Source of the DNA: Paenibacillus sp.
GTDB taxonomy: Bacteria > Bacillota > Bacilli > Paenibacillales > YIM-B00363
Length of the DNA stretch: 64,000 nt
Assembly: GCF_031177825.1 (NCBI RefSeq)
Contig: NZ_JAPSKE010000011.1
Location: forward strand, 1-64,000
Direction of reading: 5' to 3'
The translations under genes were made by a program, and so were the position numbers. Position 1 is the first letter of the stretch; the number at the start of each line of letters is the position of its first letter. Below the pieces are notes generated by a model. It saw nothing but the letters and a program-made list of their open reading frames with translations. It had not been told where the DNA came from and did not search any database. Below are positions 2,562 to 7,430 of this stretch, one piece after another.

Positions 2562-3569
2562 ATGGAATTGCCAGTTCGCGTCGGGCCGCTGACCTCGAGC
2601 CCGATCGTGTCGAGATCGCCGGCGAATCCGATATTGACCGCGGCGCAGGTGCCTTACGCTCCCGCGCTCGTCTTTAACGCGGGCGTCTGCAAATACGAAG
2701 GCCGGTACGTCATGGTGTTTCGCAACGACTACGGGAACGCGGCCGCGCATACGCTCGAGCCGCATCATACGACGAATCTCGGCCTCGCGTTCAGCGACGA
2801 CGGGGTAGCGTGGCGCGTCGCGCCCAAGCCGATCTTAACGTGGAACGACGAGGAGGTCGTTCGCGTGTACGACCCAAGGCTCACCGTCCTCGACGGCCGG
2901 GTCTACCTGTGCTTCGCCGTCGATACGAAGCACGGCATCCGCGGCGGCATCGCCGTCACGGACGACTTCGCCTCGTTCGAAGTGCTCAGCTTGTCGCTGC
3001 CGGACAACCGCAACATGGTGTTGTTCCCGGAGCGGTTCGCCGGGAAGTACGTACGCCTCGAGCGTCCGTTCACCGTATACGGACGAGGCGGCGTCGACCG
3101 GTTCGACCTGTGGGCGTCGGATTCGCCCGATCTGAAGTATTGGGGCAACGCGCGGCTCGTGCTCGGCGTCGAGGACGTGCCGTTCGCCAACGATAAGATC
3201 GGGCCGGCCGCCCCGCCGATCAAGACGCCGCGCGGATGGCTCGCGTCGTTCCACGCGGTCGACCGGGACGATGCCCGCGGGAAGAACGGCTGGGAAGCGA
3301 GCTGGAAGAAGCGGTATACGGCGGGGATCATGCTGCTGGACATAGAAAACCCGCATCGGGTGATCGGCATGAGCCGCGAGCCGTTGCTCGCGCCGGAAGC
3401 GCCTTACGAGAAGGACGGCTTCCGGGGCGACGTCATCTTCCCCGGCGGCATGATCTTGGAGGAGTCGGGCGAAGTAAAGATCTATTATGGCGCCGCGGAT
3501 ACGGTCGAATGTCTCGCGACGGCGCACGTCGACGATCTCGTCGCGTCGTGCCTGGCCGGCGGCCGCTAG
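2562..3569 (+). CDS. GH130-family glycoside phosphorylase/hydrolase
   Basis: A 335-residue cytoplasmic five-bladed beta-propeller protein of the GH130 family, whose members phosphorolyse or hydrolyse beta-mannosides. Family marks seen: VFNAGVCKYEGRYVMVFRND near residue 38, RVYDPRLT with the likely catalytic Asp near residue 108, DNRNMVLFPE near 148, KIGPAAPPIKTPRGWL near 205 and YYGAADT near 308. Phosphorylase or hydrolase activity cannot be decided by eye; it depends on the phosphate-binding Arg/His set. There is no signal peptide, so it acts on imported sugar. It starts 36 bases after the permease with a strong GGAGGAG site and ends at a terminator, so the two genes form the remaining operon. 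Confidence 0.88.
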   Translation: MELPVRVGPLTSSPIVSRSPANPILTAAQVPYAPALVFNAGVCKYEGRYVMVFRNDYGNAAAHTLEPHHTTNLGLAFSDDGVAWRVAPKPILTWNDEEVVRVYDPRLTVLDGRVYLCFAVDTKHGIRGGIAVTDDFASFEVLSLSLPDNRNMVLFPERFAGKYVRLERPFTVYGRGGVDRFDLWASDSPDLKYWGNARLVLGVEDVPFANDKIGPAAPPIKTPRGWLASFHAVDRDDARGKNGWEASWKKRYTAGIMLLDIENPHRVIGMSREPLLAPEAPYEKDGFRGDVIFPGGMILEESGEVKIYYGAADTVECLATAHVDDLVASCLAGGR

Positions 3570-3582
3570 TTTTTCCCAATCA

Positions 3583-3638
3583 AGGGCTCCGACGGAGCGG
3601 CCGCGACGAAATACGGCTGCGCGCGGAGCCCTTTTTTT
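3583..3638 (+). terminator. Terminator after the GH130 gene
   Basis: AGGGCTCCG pairs with CGGAGCCCT across a GC-rich internal loop, followed by seven T. Confidence 0.8.
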
Positions 3639-3657
3639 GGTAAGATGGAGGAGGACA

Positions 3658-3690
3658 TGACATTTATCATACCCTCGTACTGACGTTTAT
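3658..3690 (+). promoter_or_regulatory. Direct repeat TGACRTTTAT, candidate DesR site
   Basis: TGACATTTAT (3658-3667) and TGACGTTTAT (3681-3690) differ by one base and lie 23 bp apart, about two helical turns, upstream of the desaturase gene. In Bacillus subtilis, phosphorylated DesR binds tandem sites just upstream of the des promoter. The spacing and place fit, but the match to a DesR consensus was not tested. Confidence 0.45.
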
Positions 3691-3740
3691 GTCTTCTTCC
3701 GAACGGATGCATTTTCTAAAATGAGATTAGGAAAACTGCA

Positions 3741-3758
3741 CCTATAGAAAACTATAGG
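3741..3758 (+). promoter_or_regulatory. Perfect hairpin in the desaturase leader
   Basis: CCTATAG-AAAA-CTATAGG is a perfect 7-bp stem with a four-base loop, about 50 bases before the start codon. It could be an operator or an mRNA leader hairpin that influences translation or stability. It has no T run, so it is not a standard terminator. Confidence 0.45.
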
Positions 3759-3806
3759 AAGAGGCTCGGAGTTACTCCGCGCGTCGGAACGAGGAGGACA
3801 CCTATC

Positions 3807-4874
3807 ATGTCGCAGGACAAAACGAAAGTCGCACAACTCAAAAAGGAAATCGCTCCTTTCGAAAAAACGGACACGGCGAAGAGCGTCCGTCAAATGATGA
3901 ACACGATCATTCCCTTAATAGCGCTCTGGTATGCGGCATACGCCGCTTTATCCGTATCGTACTGGCTGACGCTCGCGCTTGCGGCGATCGCCGGGGGCTT
4001 TCTGGTTCGCACGTTCATCATCTTCCACGATTGCTGCCACGGGTCGTTCTTCAAAAGCCGGAGGGCGAACGCGATCGTCGGCACGATCACGGGCATTCTT
4101 ACGGTCGTGCCGTATGCGCAGTGGAAGCATTCGCATTCCGTCCATCACGCAACGAGCGGCAACCTGGATAAGCGCGGCGTAGGCGATATGTGGGTCATGA
4201 CCGTCAAAGAATATGCCGCCGCGTCGTTCTGGCGCCGTCTGGCGTATCGATTGTACCGAAACCCGCTCGTCATGCTCGGCCTCGGGCCGGCGTTCACGTT
4301 CTTGATCGAATACCGCTTTAACCGTCAGGGCGCCCGATGGAAGGAACGTCTGAACGTGTACTTGACGAACGTGAGCATCGTAGGATTGTACGCGTCGCTG
4401 TGCTGGGCGATCGGTTGGGAAGCGTTCCTGCTCGTGCAAGTGCCGGTGTTCCTGGTATCGGGAATGGCCGGGGTATGGCTGTTCTACGTGCAGCACAACT
4501 TCGAGGATTCGTATTTCGAGCACGAGAGCGAATGGAGTTACGTACAGGCGGCCGTCGAAGGCAGCTCTTACTATAAGCTTCCGAAGCCGCTGCAGTGGAT
4601 TACGGGCAACATCGGCTTCCATCATGTGCATCACTTAAGCCCGAAGGTGCCGAATTATTATTTGGAACAGGCGCACAACTCGACGCCGCCGCTGCAGCAG
4701 GCGACGACGATCGGCGTCTCCGAAAGCTTGAAGTCGCTATGGTTCCGCCTCTGGGACGAAGACGCGAAGCGATTCGTCGGGTTCCGCGAAGCGAAGCTTA
4801 AGATGCGCGCCGCGGCAGCGGAGGTCGCCAAGGTCGGCAACAATCCGATGCGTCCCAAATTGCAGCGGGAATAG
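3807..4874 (+). CDS. des: Membrane acyl-lipid desaturase (Des type)
   Basis: Introduces a cis double bond into acyl chains of membrane phospholipids and so restores fluidity in the cold. The 355-residue protein has three histidine clusters that hold the di-iron centre: HDCCH at ~76-80, HSVHH at ~112-116 and HHVHH at ~273-277. Paired membrane helices lie at ~34-75 and ~190-228. The start is set by a GAGGAGG site. It is immediately followed by desK and desR, the same order as in B. subtilis, where the kinase/regulator pair switches the desaturase on after a temperature drop. The double-bond position (delta-5 in B. subtilis) is inferred only from this context. Confidence 0.93.
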   Translation: MSQDKTKVAQLKKEIAPFEKTDTAKSVRQMMNTIIPLIALWYAAYAALSVSYWLTLALAAIAGGFLVRTFIIFHDCCHGSFFKSRRANAIVGTITGILTVVPYAQWKHSHSVHHATSGNLDKRGVGDMWVMTVKEYAAASFWRRLAYRLYRNPLVMLGLGPAFTFLIEYRFNRQGARWKERLNVYLTNVSIVGLYASLCWAIGWEAFLLVQVPVFLVSGMAGVWLFYVQHNFEDSYFEHESEWSYVQAAVEGSSYYKLPKPLQWITGNIGFHHVHHLSPKVPNYYLEQAHNSTPPLQQATTIGVSESLKSLWFRLWDEDAKRFVGFREAKLKMRAAAAEVAKVGNNPMRPKLQRE

Positions 4875-4895
4875 CCGGCGGGAGGAGGAGCGGAC

Positions 4896-6032
4896 ATTTC
4901 CAAGTGGAGCCAATTTTTCATTAAAAACACCGGACTCGGCCCATACGTATGGGTCGTGTTCTACATTCTGCCCTTTTATTTCATTATCCGTTCCTCCTCG
5001 CCTTACGAAATCGCGCTGGGCATCGGATTGATCGTATTGTTCTTCGCTTGTTACGTGATGGCGTTCGTCTCGAAGAAAGGGTGGCTCGTCTTCTTCTGGA
5101 CGAGCGTGCAAATTCTCATCTCCATCGTCATGACCGTGCTGTTCGGCTATGTGTACTTCTCGTTGTTCCTGGCGTTCTTCATCGGGAACCTGCAGAACCG
5201 CGTCGCTTTCTTCACGTTCTATACGATTCATCTGATCAGTACGATCGTGACCGTCAACATCGGCTTCGCGACGAAAAATCCGATCTTCATCACGCAGCTG
5301 CCGTTCGTGCTCGTCTGTCTGATCGGCGTCGTCCTGCTTCCGGTCAGCACGCATAACAAAAATCGGCAGGATAAGCTGGAGGGCCAGTTGGAACATGCGA
5401 ACAAGCGCATCTCCGAGCTCGTCAAGCTCGAAGAGCGTCAACGCATCGCCCGCGACCTGCACGACACGCTCGGCCAGAAGTTGTCGCTGATCGGGCTGAA
5501 GACCGATCTCGCCGGGAAGCTGATCGACCTCGACGCGAAGCAAGCGCGCGCGGAGCTCGACGACATCCGGCAGACGGCGCGGACGGCGCTGAAAGAAGTG
5601 AGGGAGTTGGTCACCTCGATGCGCGGCGACCGGGTGGAAGACGAGTTGTTCCGCGTCCGGCAAATCCTGAAAGCCGCCGAAATCGAGCTGCGGCTCGAAG
5701 GAGACCCGACGCATCTGGATACGTCGCTCATGATCGAGAACGTGCTCAGCATGTGCTTGAAAGAAGCGGTCACGAACGTCGTAAGGCACAGCAAGGCGTC
5801 GGTATGCACGATCGCCTTCGAGCCGTCGCGCACCGAGCTCGTCTTGCGGGTGTCGGACAACGGCGTCGGCATGGCGAAAAACACGGTTCGCGGCAACGGC
5901 CTGCGCGGCATGCGAGAGCGGCTCGAATTCGTGAACGGATCGTTCGACATCGAGTCCGTTCAAGGGACGACGGTCGTCATCCGGGTGCCGAATATGCCCA
6001 AGCCGCCGGAGAAGGAGGAGATTCGCGCATGA
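4896..6032 (+). CDS. desK: DesK-type membrane thermosensor histidine kinase, probable ATT start
   Basis: Senses membrane order and phosphorylates or dephosphorylates DesR. About five membrane helices fill residues 12-155, followed by the coiled-coil linker, the DHp helix with His189 in RIARDLHDTLGQKL, and an HATPase domain (EAVTNVVRHS, SDNGVGM, GLRGMRERL). No ATG, GTG or TTG lies between the des stop and the GTG at 4956, which falls inside the first helix. The frame instead runs back to ATT at 4896, five bases after GGAGGAGGAG. That start gives ISKWSQFFIKNTGLGPYVW, which aligns with the B. subtilis N terminus and keeps the polar Lys10/Asn11 cap of the 'sunken buoy' sensor. The predicted length is 378 aa, against 370 in B. 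subtilis. The GTG start would lose the sensor cap. Confidence 0.9.
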   Translation: MSKWSQFFIKNTGLGPYVWVVFYILPFYFIIRSSSPYEIALGIGLIVLFFACYVMAFVSKKGWLVFFWTSVQILISIVMTVLFGYVYFSLFLAFFIGNLQNRVAFFTFYTIHLISTIVTVNIGFATKNPIFITQLPFVLVCLIGVVLLPVSTHNKNRQDKLEGQLEHANKRISELVKLEERQRIARDLHDTLGQKLSLIGLKTDLAGKLIDLDAKQARAELDDIRQTARTALKEVRELVTSMRGDRVEDELFRVRQILKAAEIELRLEGDPTHLDTSLMIENVLSMCLKEAVTNVVRHSKASVCTIAFEPSRTELVLRVSDNGVGMAKNTVRGNGLRGMRERLEFVNGSFDIESVQGTTVVIRVPNMPKPPEKEEIRA

Positions 6033-6628
6033 TTCGCATCGTGATCGCGGAGGATCAACGGATGATGCTGGGCGCGCTCGCCTCCTTGCTGGATCTCGAG
6101 CCCGACATGAAGGTCGTCGGTCGGGCGAACAACGGCGAGGAGGCCGTGCGTCTCGTGAAGGAGCATCGGCCGGATATATGCGTAATGGACATCGAGATGC
6201 CGGCCAAGAGCGGCCTCGAGGCGGCGGAGGAGCTGAAGGGGAGCGGTTGCAAGGTCGTCATTTTGACGACGTTCGCGCGTTCCGGGTATTTCGAGCGGGC
6301 GCTCAAGGCGGGCGTCAGCGGCTATTTGCTGAAGGACAGTCCGATCGAGGAACTGGCGGACTCGATCCGCAGCGTCATGTCCGGACGGCGCATCTACGCG
6401 CCCGACCTCGTCGACGATGCGTACGCCGAGAGCAATCCGCTCACCGAACGGGAAACCGAGGTGCTCGAGCTGATGGCCGACGGGAAAAACACGAAGGAAA
6501 TCGCGAGCCAGCTGTTCATTACAACCGGCACGGTGCGCAACTATATTTCCGTCATTCTCGACAAGCTCGACGTCGGGAATCGGATCGAAGCGATCAAGCG
6601 GTTCAAGGACAAAGGATGGTTCAAGTAG
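6029..6628 (+). CDS. desR: DesR-type response regulator (NarL/FixJ family)
   Basis: Partner of the kinase just upstream, with which it overlaps in an ATGA junction. Residues 1-120 form a receiver domain with the acidic pocket Glu8-Asp9, phospho-acceptor Asp54 (CVMDIEMP), Thr82-Thr83 and the conserved Lys104 (LLKDSP). Residues ~135-199 form a LuxR-type helix-turn-helix (PLTERETEVLELMADGKNTK). The 199-residue length and Asp54 match B. subtilis DesR. It is expected to bind upstream of the desaturase gene when phosphorylated. Longer reading frames that extend upstream into desK are artefacts, because ATG 6029 is coupled to the desK stop. Confidence 0.94.
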   Translation: MIRIVIAEDQRMMLGALASLLDLEPDMKVVGRANNGEEAVRLVKEHRPDICVMDIEMPAKSGLEAAEELKGSGCKVVILTTFARSGYFERALKAGVSGYLLKDSPIEELADSIRSVMSGRRIYAPDLVDDAYAESNPLTERETEVLELMADGKNTKEIASQLFITTGTVRNYISVILDKLDVGNRIEAIKRFKDKGWFK

Positions 6629-6644
6629 GGGAGGAGCGGCACGA

Positions 6645-7430
6645 ATGATTCGCACGGGATTGGTATCGATTACGTTCCGGTCGCTGTCGCCCGCGCGCGT
6701 CGCCGCGCTCGCGGCGGAGGCCGGATTGGAAGCGATCGAATGGGGCGGAGATATTCACGTCCCCCACGGCGACGTCGCCGCCGCTCGCGAAGCGGCGCGT
6801 TGGACGCGGGAGGCCGGGCTGGCGGTCGCATCCTACGGCTCGTATTACCGGCTCGCGGCCGGGGCCGAGCAATCGTTCGACTTCGACGACGTCCTATCGA
6901 CCGCGCTCGCGCTCGGCGCGCCGTCGATCCGCGTCTGGGCGGGCGATCGCGGCTCGGAAGGGGCCGACGACGCTTGGCGCGGGCGGGCGACGGCCGACGC
7001 GCGGCGCATCGCGGAAGCGGCGGCGCGCGAAGGCGTGCTCGTCTGCCTTGAGTACCACGCCAGGACGTTGACCGATACGTGCGATTCCGCGATTCGCTTG
7101 CTTCGAGAAGCGGACCATCCGAACTTGCGCACGCTGTGGCAGCCGGCGGTCGGCGGCTCTCCCGATCGGCTGCTCGAGGAGCTGCGGCGGCTGGCGCCGT
7201 GGCTCGAATACGTGCACGCGTACCATTGGGAGGGCCGCGAACGGCGTCCGTTCGCCGAAGGCGCCGAGGAGTGGCGCTTCTACCTGGAAGCGTTGAACGC
7301 GCTGCCCGGCGACCGATTCGCCCTGCTCGAGTTCGTGCGGGACGACGCCCCGCCGCAGCTCGCGGATGACGCGAAGGCGCTGCGGCGGCTCGCGGCGGAC
7401 GTATCCGGACAGGCGGGGTATAGCTTGTAG
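6645..7430 (+). CDS. Sugar phosphate isomerase/epimerase-like TIM-barrel protein
   Basis: A 261-residue protein of the xylose-isomerase-like/AP-endonuclease-2 fold. The N-terminal GLVSITFRSLSPARVAALAAEAGLEAIEWGGD strand-helix unit is characteristic. Candidate metal ligands are Glu31 (IEWGGDIHV), Glu136 in VCLEYH with its following His, His193 in YVHAYHW and the C-terminal Glu in LLEFVRDD. Substrate is unknown; relatives act on sugars, inositols or hydroxypyruvate. It starts 16 bases after desR with a GGGGAGGAG site, so it may be co-transcribed with the desaturase operon, although no functional link is obvious. No signal peptide is present. Confidence 0.82.
   Translation: MIRTGLVSITFRSLSPARVAALAAEAGLEAIEWGGDIHVPHGDVAAAREAARWTREAGLAVASYGSYYRLAAGAEQSFDFDDVLSTALALGAPSIRVWAGDRGSEGADDAWRGRATADARRIAEAAAREGVLVCLEYHARTLTDTCDSAIRLLREADHPNLRTLWQPAVGGSPDRLLEELRRLAPWLEYVHAYHWEGRERRPFAEGAEEWRFYLEALNALPGDRFALLEFVRDDAPPQLADDAKALRRLAADVSGQAGYSL

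Follow-up and report, generated by a model that had tools for sequence, protein, structure and literature searches.

Where does translation of desK, the gene for a thermosensor histidine kinase, begin when its frame seems to lack a usable start codon of the ordinary kind? The question is raised by a stretch of 64,000 nucleotides from Paenibacillus sp. (contig NZ_JAPSKE010000011.1, positions 1 to 64,000), here called the window, in which the open desK frame spans 4875 to 6029, just downstream of the stop codon of the desaturase gene des (TAG, 4872–4874). Reading the frame bore out the claim of an earlier sequence-only reading that no ATG, GTG or TTG lies between that stop and a GTG at 4956, which is the first canonical in-frame codon and codon 21 if the ATT at 4896 is counted as codon 1. 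The same reading had placed the start at this ATT, five bases past a Shine-Dalgarno (SD) sequence, and the letters do run from the extended SD through a spacer of 5 nt (CGGAC) into ATT (Table 1).

Table 1. Features around the desK start in the window
Feature	Position	Strand	Basis
des, membrane fatty-acid desaturase, first gene of the operon	3807..4874	+	NCBIfam NF052548; Pfam FA_desaturase
Extended Shine-Dalgarno GGAGGAGGAG	4881..4890	+	Sequence; duplex −14.9 kcal/mol; kept in G001 and G002
desK, thermosensor histidine kinase, 378 aa	4896..6032 (stop 6030-6032)	+	Pfam; phmmer
ATT, desK start codon (codon 1)	4896..4898	+	Forced by absence of in-frame ATG/GTG/TTG; aligns with ATG/GTG/TTG of relatives; shared by three species of the genus and by a second lineage
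Codons 10-16 (Lys10, Asn11, Thr12, Gly13, Pro16), head of first membrane helix	4923..4943	+	Translation
GTG, codon 21, first canonical in-frame start	4956..4958	+	Rejected as start: no SD (−1.7 kcal/mol); within first hydrophobic segment; start here would drop conserved N terminus
desR, response regulator	6029..6628	+	ATG overlaps desK stop (ATGA, 6029-6032); own SD GGAGAAGGAGGAG

As expected for a DesK kinase gene, desK shares its operon with genes for a desaturase and for a regulator of the DesR type. The des product matches the NCBIfam model NF052548 for Delta(5) desaturase DesA (E 8e-181; 600 bits against a cut-off of 500), the SD of desR is located inside the end of desK with a duplex energy of about −15 kcal/mol (anchored one base off), and both the desK/desR ATGA overlap and the gene order recur in Paenibacillus pabuli (L143). 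The protein read from ATT matches the Pfam families DesK_N (E 4e-55, residues 2–151), HisKA_3 (E 5e-21), and HATPase_c (E 7e-10), and the closest solved structures found with phmmer are those of Bacillus subtilis DesK (E 5.5e-67). The same genome encodes a second DesK-like kinase (G000:C55:78763-79857), 34% identical over residues 16–376.

The window proteins and B. subtilis DesK/DesR belong to the same family, share the functions of des-desK-desR, and place Lys10, Gly13, and Pro16 at the same positions, a numbering that agrees only if ATT is codon 1. In B. subtilis, desK starts with ATG. The G13-P16 pair is conserved in DesK (PMC6879721), and the residues of the B. subtilis “sunken buoy” are Gln9, Lys10, and Asn12 (PMC7726353). 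The sequence-only reading had aligned the N terminus with this sensor cap, of which the numbering and Lys10 stand; Gln9 and Asn12 do not, as residues 9–12 of the window protein are Ile9, Lys10, Asn11, and Thr12, so that Lys10 is the only sunken-buoy position shared and residues 9 and 12 differ. In the alignment, the N terminus matches relatives that start with ATG, GTG, or TTG codon for codon. Codons 2–20 differ from those of one sister species (G001) by two synonymous and no nonsynonymous changes and from those of another (G002) by six synonymous and one nonsynonymous change, and because synonymous changes outnumber nonsynonymous ones this stretch is under selection as protein.

With a consensus 16S rRNA tail assumed, pairing with the anti-SD is computed at −14.9 kcal/mol for ATT 4896 and at −1.7 kcal/mol for GTG 4956. 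As a motif the arrangement is common: GGAGG followed after 5–9 nt by ATT is seen eight times in the window against 6.9 expected, i.e., at chance level. In a wider scan of the window (GGAGG, 4–9 nt, then ATT, ATC, or ATA), 4896 is the single site whose long open frame lacks a canonical start both upstream and within the 20 codons downstream. The weight of the case for the predicted ATT start is carried by the comparative data, not by the SD motif itself. RNA structure at the desK start is no more stable than in shuffled sequences (z 0.94), and positions 3500–6800 gave no match to Rfam elements.

Within the genus of the window, ATT and the SD are identical in G001 and G002, the DesK proteins of which are 97% and 87% identical to that of the window and which, like the window, lack an in-frame canonical start close to the N terminus; the G002 contig stems from the metagenome-assembled genome Paenibacillus sp. 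RH52_bin.063. No close desK was found in G003, and desK starts with ATG in G004 and G005. A weak start is not essential, since another species of the same genus has ATG in the same operon. The sequence-only reading had looked to related genomes for conservation of ATT, which these sisters provide and to which a second lineage that evolved ATT separately adds. It had also held that relatives with ATG at this position would make the ATT a private mutation or a sequence error: most relatives do have ATG, but the sisters share ATT, and because the codon is kept in them, re-evolved elsewhere, and conserved there, both of these explanations are ruled out.

About 190 distinct desK starts were read across the order, where most are ATG and some GTG or TTG. 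The second lineage takes in the Paenibacillus amylolyticus/pabuli/taichungensis group (hereafter the P. amylolyticus group) with 47 species genomes, 46 of them with ATT and one with ATC, as well as three genomes farther away (L152 with ATT, L153 and L260 with ATC). Among the named isolates of the P. amylolyticus group are P. amylolyticus, P. pabuli, P. xylanexedens, P. taichungensis, P. illinoisensis, P. barcinonensis, and P. tundrae. Almost throughout this group, the desK leader reads (A)AGGAGGAGAAT. Several second-lineage genomes have no usable canonical start (e.g., L059, L083, L087, L091, L141, L151, L152, L153). Many others carry an ATG at codon 5 and some an in-frame GTG or TTG upstream, for which reason those species alone do not force ATT, and the ATC of L260 is likewise not forced, as an in-frame ATG lies 14 codons upstream. 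The codon-5 ATG (IQKWMQ subgroup) was rejected as the true start: at the loci computed, its SD reaches −2.7 to −7.1 kcal/mol versus about −12 kcal/mol for ATT, and it is missing in species with Ser5 or Thr5. Three further matches to the search pattern (L129, L130, L136) were discarded as not being desK.

In the complete genome of Paenibacillus sp. OVF10 (CP094668; L127), desK looks frameshifted with its SD-ATT region intact, which points to a pseudogene or else to an error in sequencing. Outside the ATT lineages the DesK N terminus varies by a few residues, since the ATG start is displaced in two further groups of Paenibacillaceae (L239, L240, L242-L246, L251, L269, L270, L272, L274-L281, L283; e.g., MQQKWHQ, MFKRLRKIQ).

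DesK trees were built without residue 1. The second ATT/ATC block forms one clade with support of 99/96 in one tree and 100/99 in another, and the genus of the window sits apart from it, its three ATT species nesting beside an ATG species. At least two start-codon changes are needed on the tree, the strongly supported branches alone already demand two, and a single origin appears in none of 200 bootstrap trees, with the bootstraps not fully settled and a long branch leading to the P. amylolyticus group. The trees require two origins of a desK start other than ATG, GTG, or TTG, one in the genus of the window and one in the second lineage. That L152, L153, and L260 join the P. amylolyticus group is less sure than that they are separate from the genus of the window. 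A count of four origins, with L152, L153, and the P. amylolyticus group separate, was set aside as they form one supported clade (100/99). Ancestral AUG starts have been found switched to AUU in 1 of 61,358 cases (PMC5622118), a rarity that makes two origins in one gene notable, with the proviso that the two data sets do not allow a direct comparison.

The codon has also been kept. Of the 47 P. amylolyticus group genomes, 46 have T as the third base of the start codon, a level of third-base conservation reached by none of 60 columns with a conserved amino acid (15 Ile, 23 fourfold, and 22 sixfold degenerate), the counts coming from related and thus not independent genomes. The start has moved between ATT and ATC, but no return to ATG, GTG, or TTG was seen in the clade (about 50 genomes sampled), although G is accepted in 19 of the 23 fourfold columns. 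In the P. amylolyticus group, it is thus the start codon itself that is conserved. Both ATT origins have strong SDs, and the median duplex energy is about −12.2 kcal/mol for desK genes with ATT or ATC versus −9.4 kcal/mol for those with ATG (Mann-Whitney p 4e-11, on rows that are not independent).

In this genome, desK almost certainly starts at AUU. The position of the start and its conservation, the two origins, the strong SD, and the layout of the operon, all of them observed, provide the setting for a mechanism in which AUU 4896, guided by the extended SD, would be read by fMet-tRNA to give full-length DesK with an intact N-terminal membrane sensor. AUU would be a weak start discriminated by initiation factor IF3 and in part rescued by the extended SD, so that little kinase would be made per desK mRNA, and DesR would be in excess through its own strong SD and the ATG overlapping the desK stop. 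The benefit would be a kinase/phosphatase kept at a low level compared with its regulator and buffered upon cold induction of des-desK-desR. We put the probability that desK starts at AUU 4896 and that weak, IF3-discriminated initiation keeps DesK scarce relative to DesR at about three in four. Use of AUU by the ribosomes of this genome is expected because its infC also has ATT after an SD (GGAGG). A low kinase level set by the start codon, as the sequence-only reading had proposed, is something we infer by analogy with the measured cases of cvfC1 (AUU) and sigR (GTC); the low yield, the dependence on IF3, and a benefit with the DesK:DesR ratio as the selected trait are likewise inferred, and the strong SD could restore the yield and leave no net reduction. 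Its separate adoption in one Paenibacillus group and its retention in about 47 species there suggest that cells benefit from inefficient DesK production from this unusual start. The most interesting extension of the mechanism would be an effect of temperature on AUU use: AUU initiation or the IF3:ribosome ratio might shift with temperature, such that cold would tune DesK translation and the start would have been selected twice for this property, an idea that we regard as a long shot.

As regards IF3 itself, the genome encodes a second, divergent IF3-like protein (G000:C9:419864-420112, L208; IF3_C 46.8 bits, 174 codons, apparent ATG), and more than one IF3_C match was present in 16 of 17 other Paenibacillales genomes searched. 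Both matches in G264 are weak (about 47–54 bits), and its own infC may be missing from the incomplete assembly.

Other readings of the start position would make ATT irrelevant. Initiation at GTG 4956, yielding a protein without the first 20 residues, has in its favor that this is the first canonical in-frame start codon, but it is very improbable: the codon has no SD and falls, as the sequence-only reading had noted, inside the first membrane helix (the first hydrophobic segment spans about residues 13–31), which a start there would cut with loss of Lys10, Gly13, and Pro16. Codons 2–20, moreover, evolve as protein and are coded in all relatives, and the GTG is a mere valine codon, its counterpart in G004 being GTC. 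Readthrough of TAG 4872 into a Des-DesK fusion is conceivable in the window, where des and desK share a frame 21 nt apart, but we consider it exceedingly improbable. At other ATT/ATC loci the des-desK gaps (134 nt in L060, 124 in L145, 104 in L141, 76 in L152, 86 in L153, 68 in L260) are not multiples of three, extra in-frame stops lie shortly upstream of ATT in most of them, and the SD is conserved. Single-base errors are common in draft genomes, and the AUU could in principle stand for a misread ATG, but the chance of this is vanishingly small when the same ATT and SD occur in three species with 87–97% protein identity and ATT was read independently in isolates of P. pabuli, P. amylolyticus, and P. 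taichungensis; the relatives refute it.

A further reading accepts the AUU start as real and takes it to be neutral or slightly harmful, offset by the stronger SD and devoid of a regulatory role. Compensation of weak starts by the SD is a general trend (PMC5622118) that the stronger SDs of the ATT genes fit, and G004, of the same genus, fares well with an ATG start. We nevertheless regard this reading as unlikely, for the rare change from AUG to AUU would have had to occur twice in one gene of one order, and the start exchanged ATT and ATC and did not revert among about 50 genomes in which most fourfold columns tolerate G. A back-change would presumably be favored if the weak start were harmful. 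The double origin and the long retention of the start speak for selected weak initiation and against an accident.

Genes with a conserved non-canonical start and an extended SD form a known class that includes infC, pcnB, sigR, cvfC1, and ccpN, and desK has the features that mark it: no usable canonical start, conservation across species, and an extended SD. Like desK, infC (AUU/AUC/AUA) has a conserved non-canonical start behind a strong SD, through which IF3 of Escherichia coli represses its own translation (reviewed in PMC5472188); that is a feedback loop on IF3 itself, whereas DesK has no known link to IF3. In Streptomyces, sigR likewise codes for a regulator of a stress response, shares an operon with the gene of its partner, and has a non-canonical start with an extensive SD (AGGAGGTG); the weak GTC start keeps its level below that of the partner, and repression by IF3 was measured (PMC5472188). 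Given the desR ATG that overlaps desK and the strong SD in front of it, the simplest reading is that a single mRNA would yield little kinase and much regulator, as for sigR-rsrA, although sigR involves GTC and a sigma/anti-sigma pair in an actinobacterium, and desK AUU and a kinase/regulator pair in Paenibacillales. Closer in phylogeny, cvfC1 (AUU) and ccpN (AUA) of Staphylococcus aureus are also Firmicutes genes with conserved AUN starts and extended SDs, and in poor medium the reporters of both reached about 10% of the level obtained with AUG (PMC13009471). These are other genes without a temperature sensor, and they are not known to have acquired the start in two separate origins. In E. coli pcnB, a poly(A) polymerase gene of a distant phylum, an AUU start limits expression (cited in PMC13009471).

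What is new here is the gene, a membrane thermosensor kinase, together with the two origins and the extent of conservation. To our knowledge, a handful of bacterial genes have a conserved AUU, AUC, or AUA start, none of them a sensor kinase, and a literature search for an ATT start codon in Paenibacillus or a histidine kinase with AUU found none. Because gene finders generally accept ATG, GTG, and TTG only, desK is predicted to be misannotated in dozens of Paenibacillus genomes, and the case of a weak start would be hosted by a model system for thermosensing.
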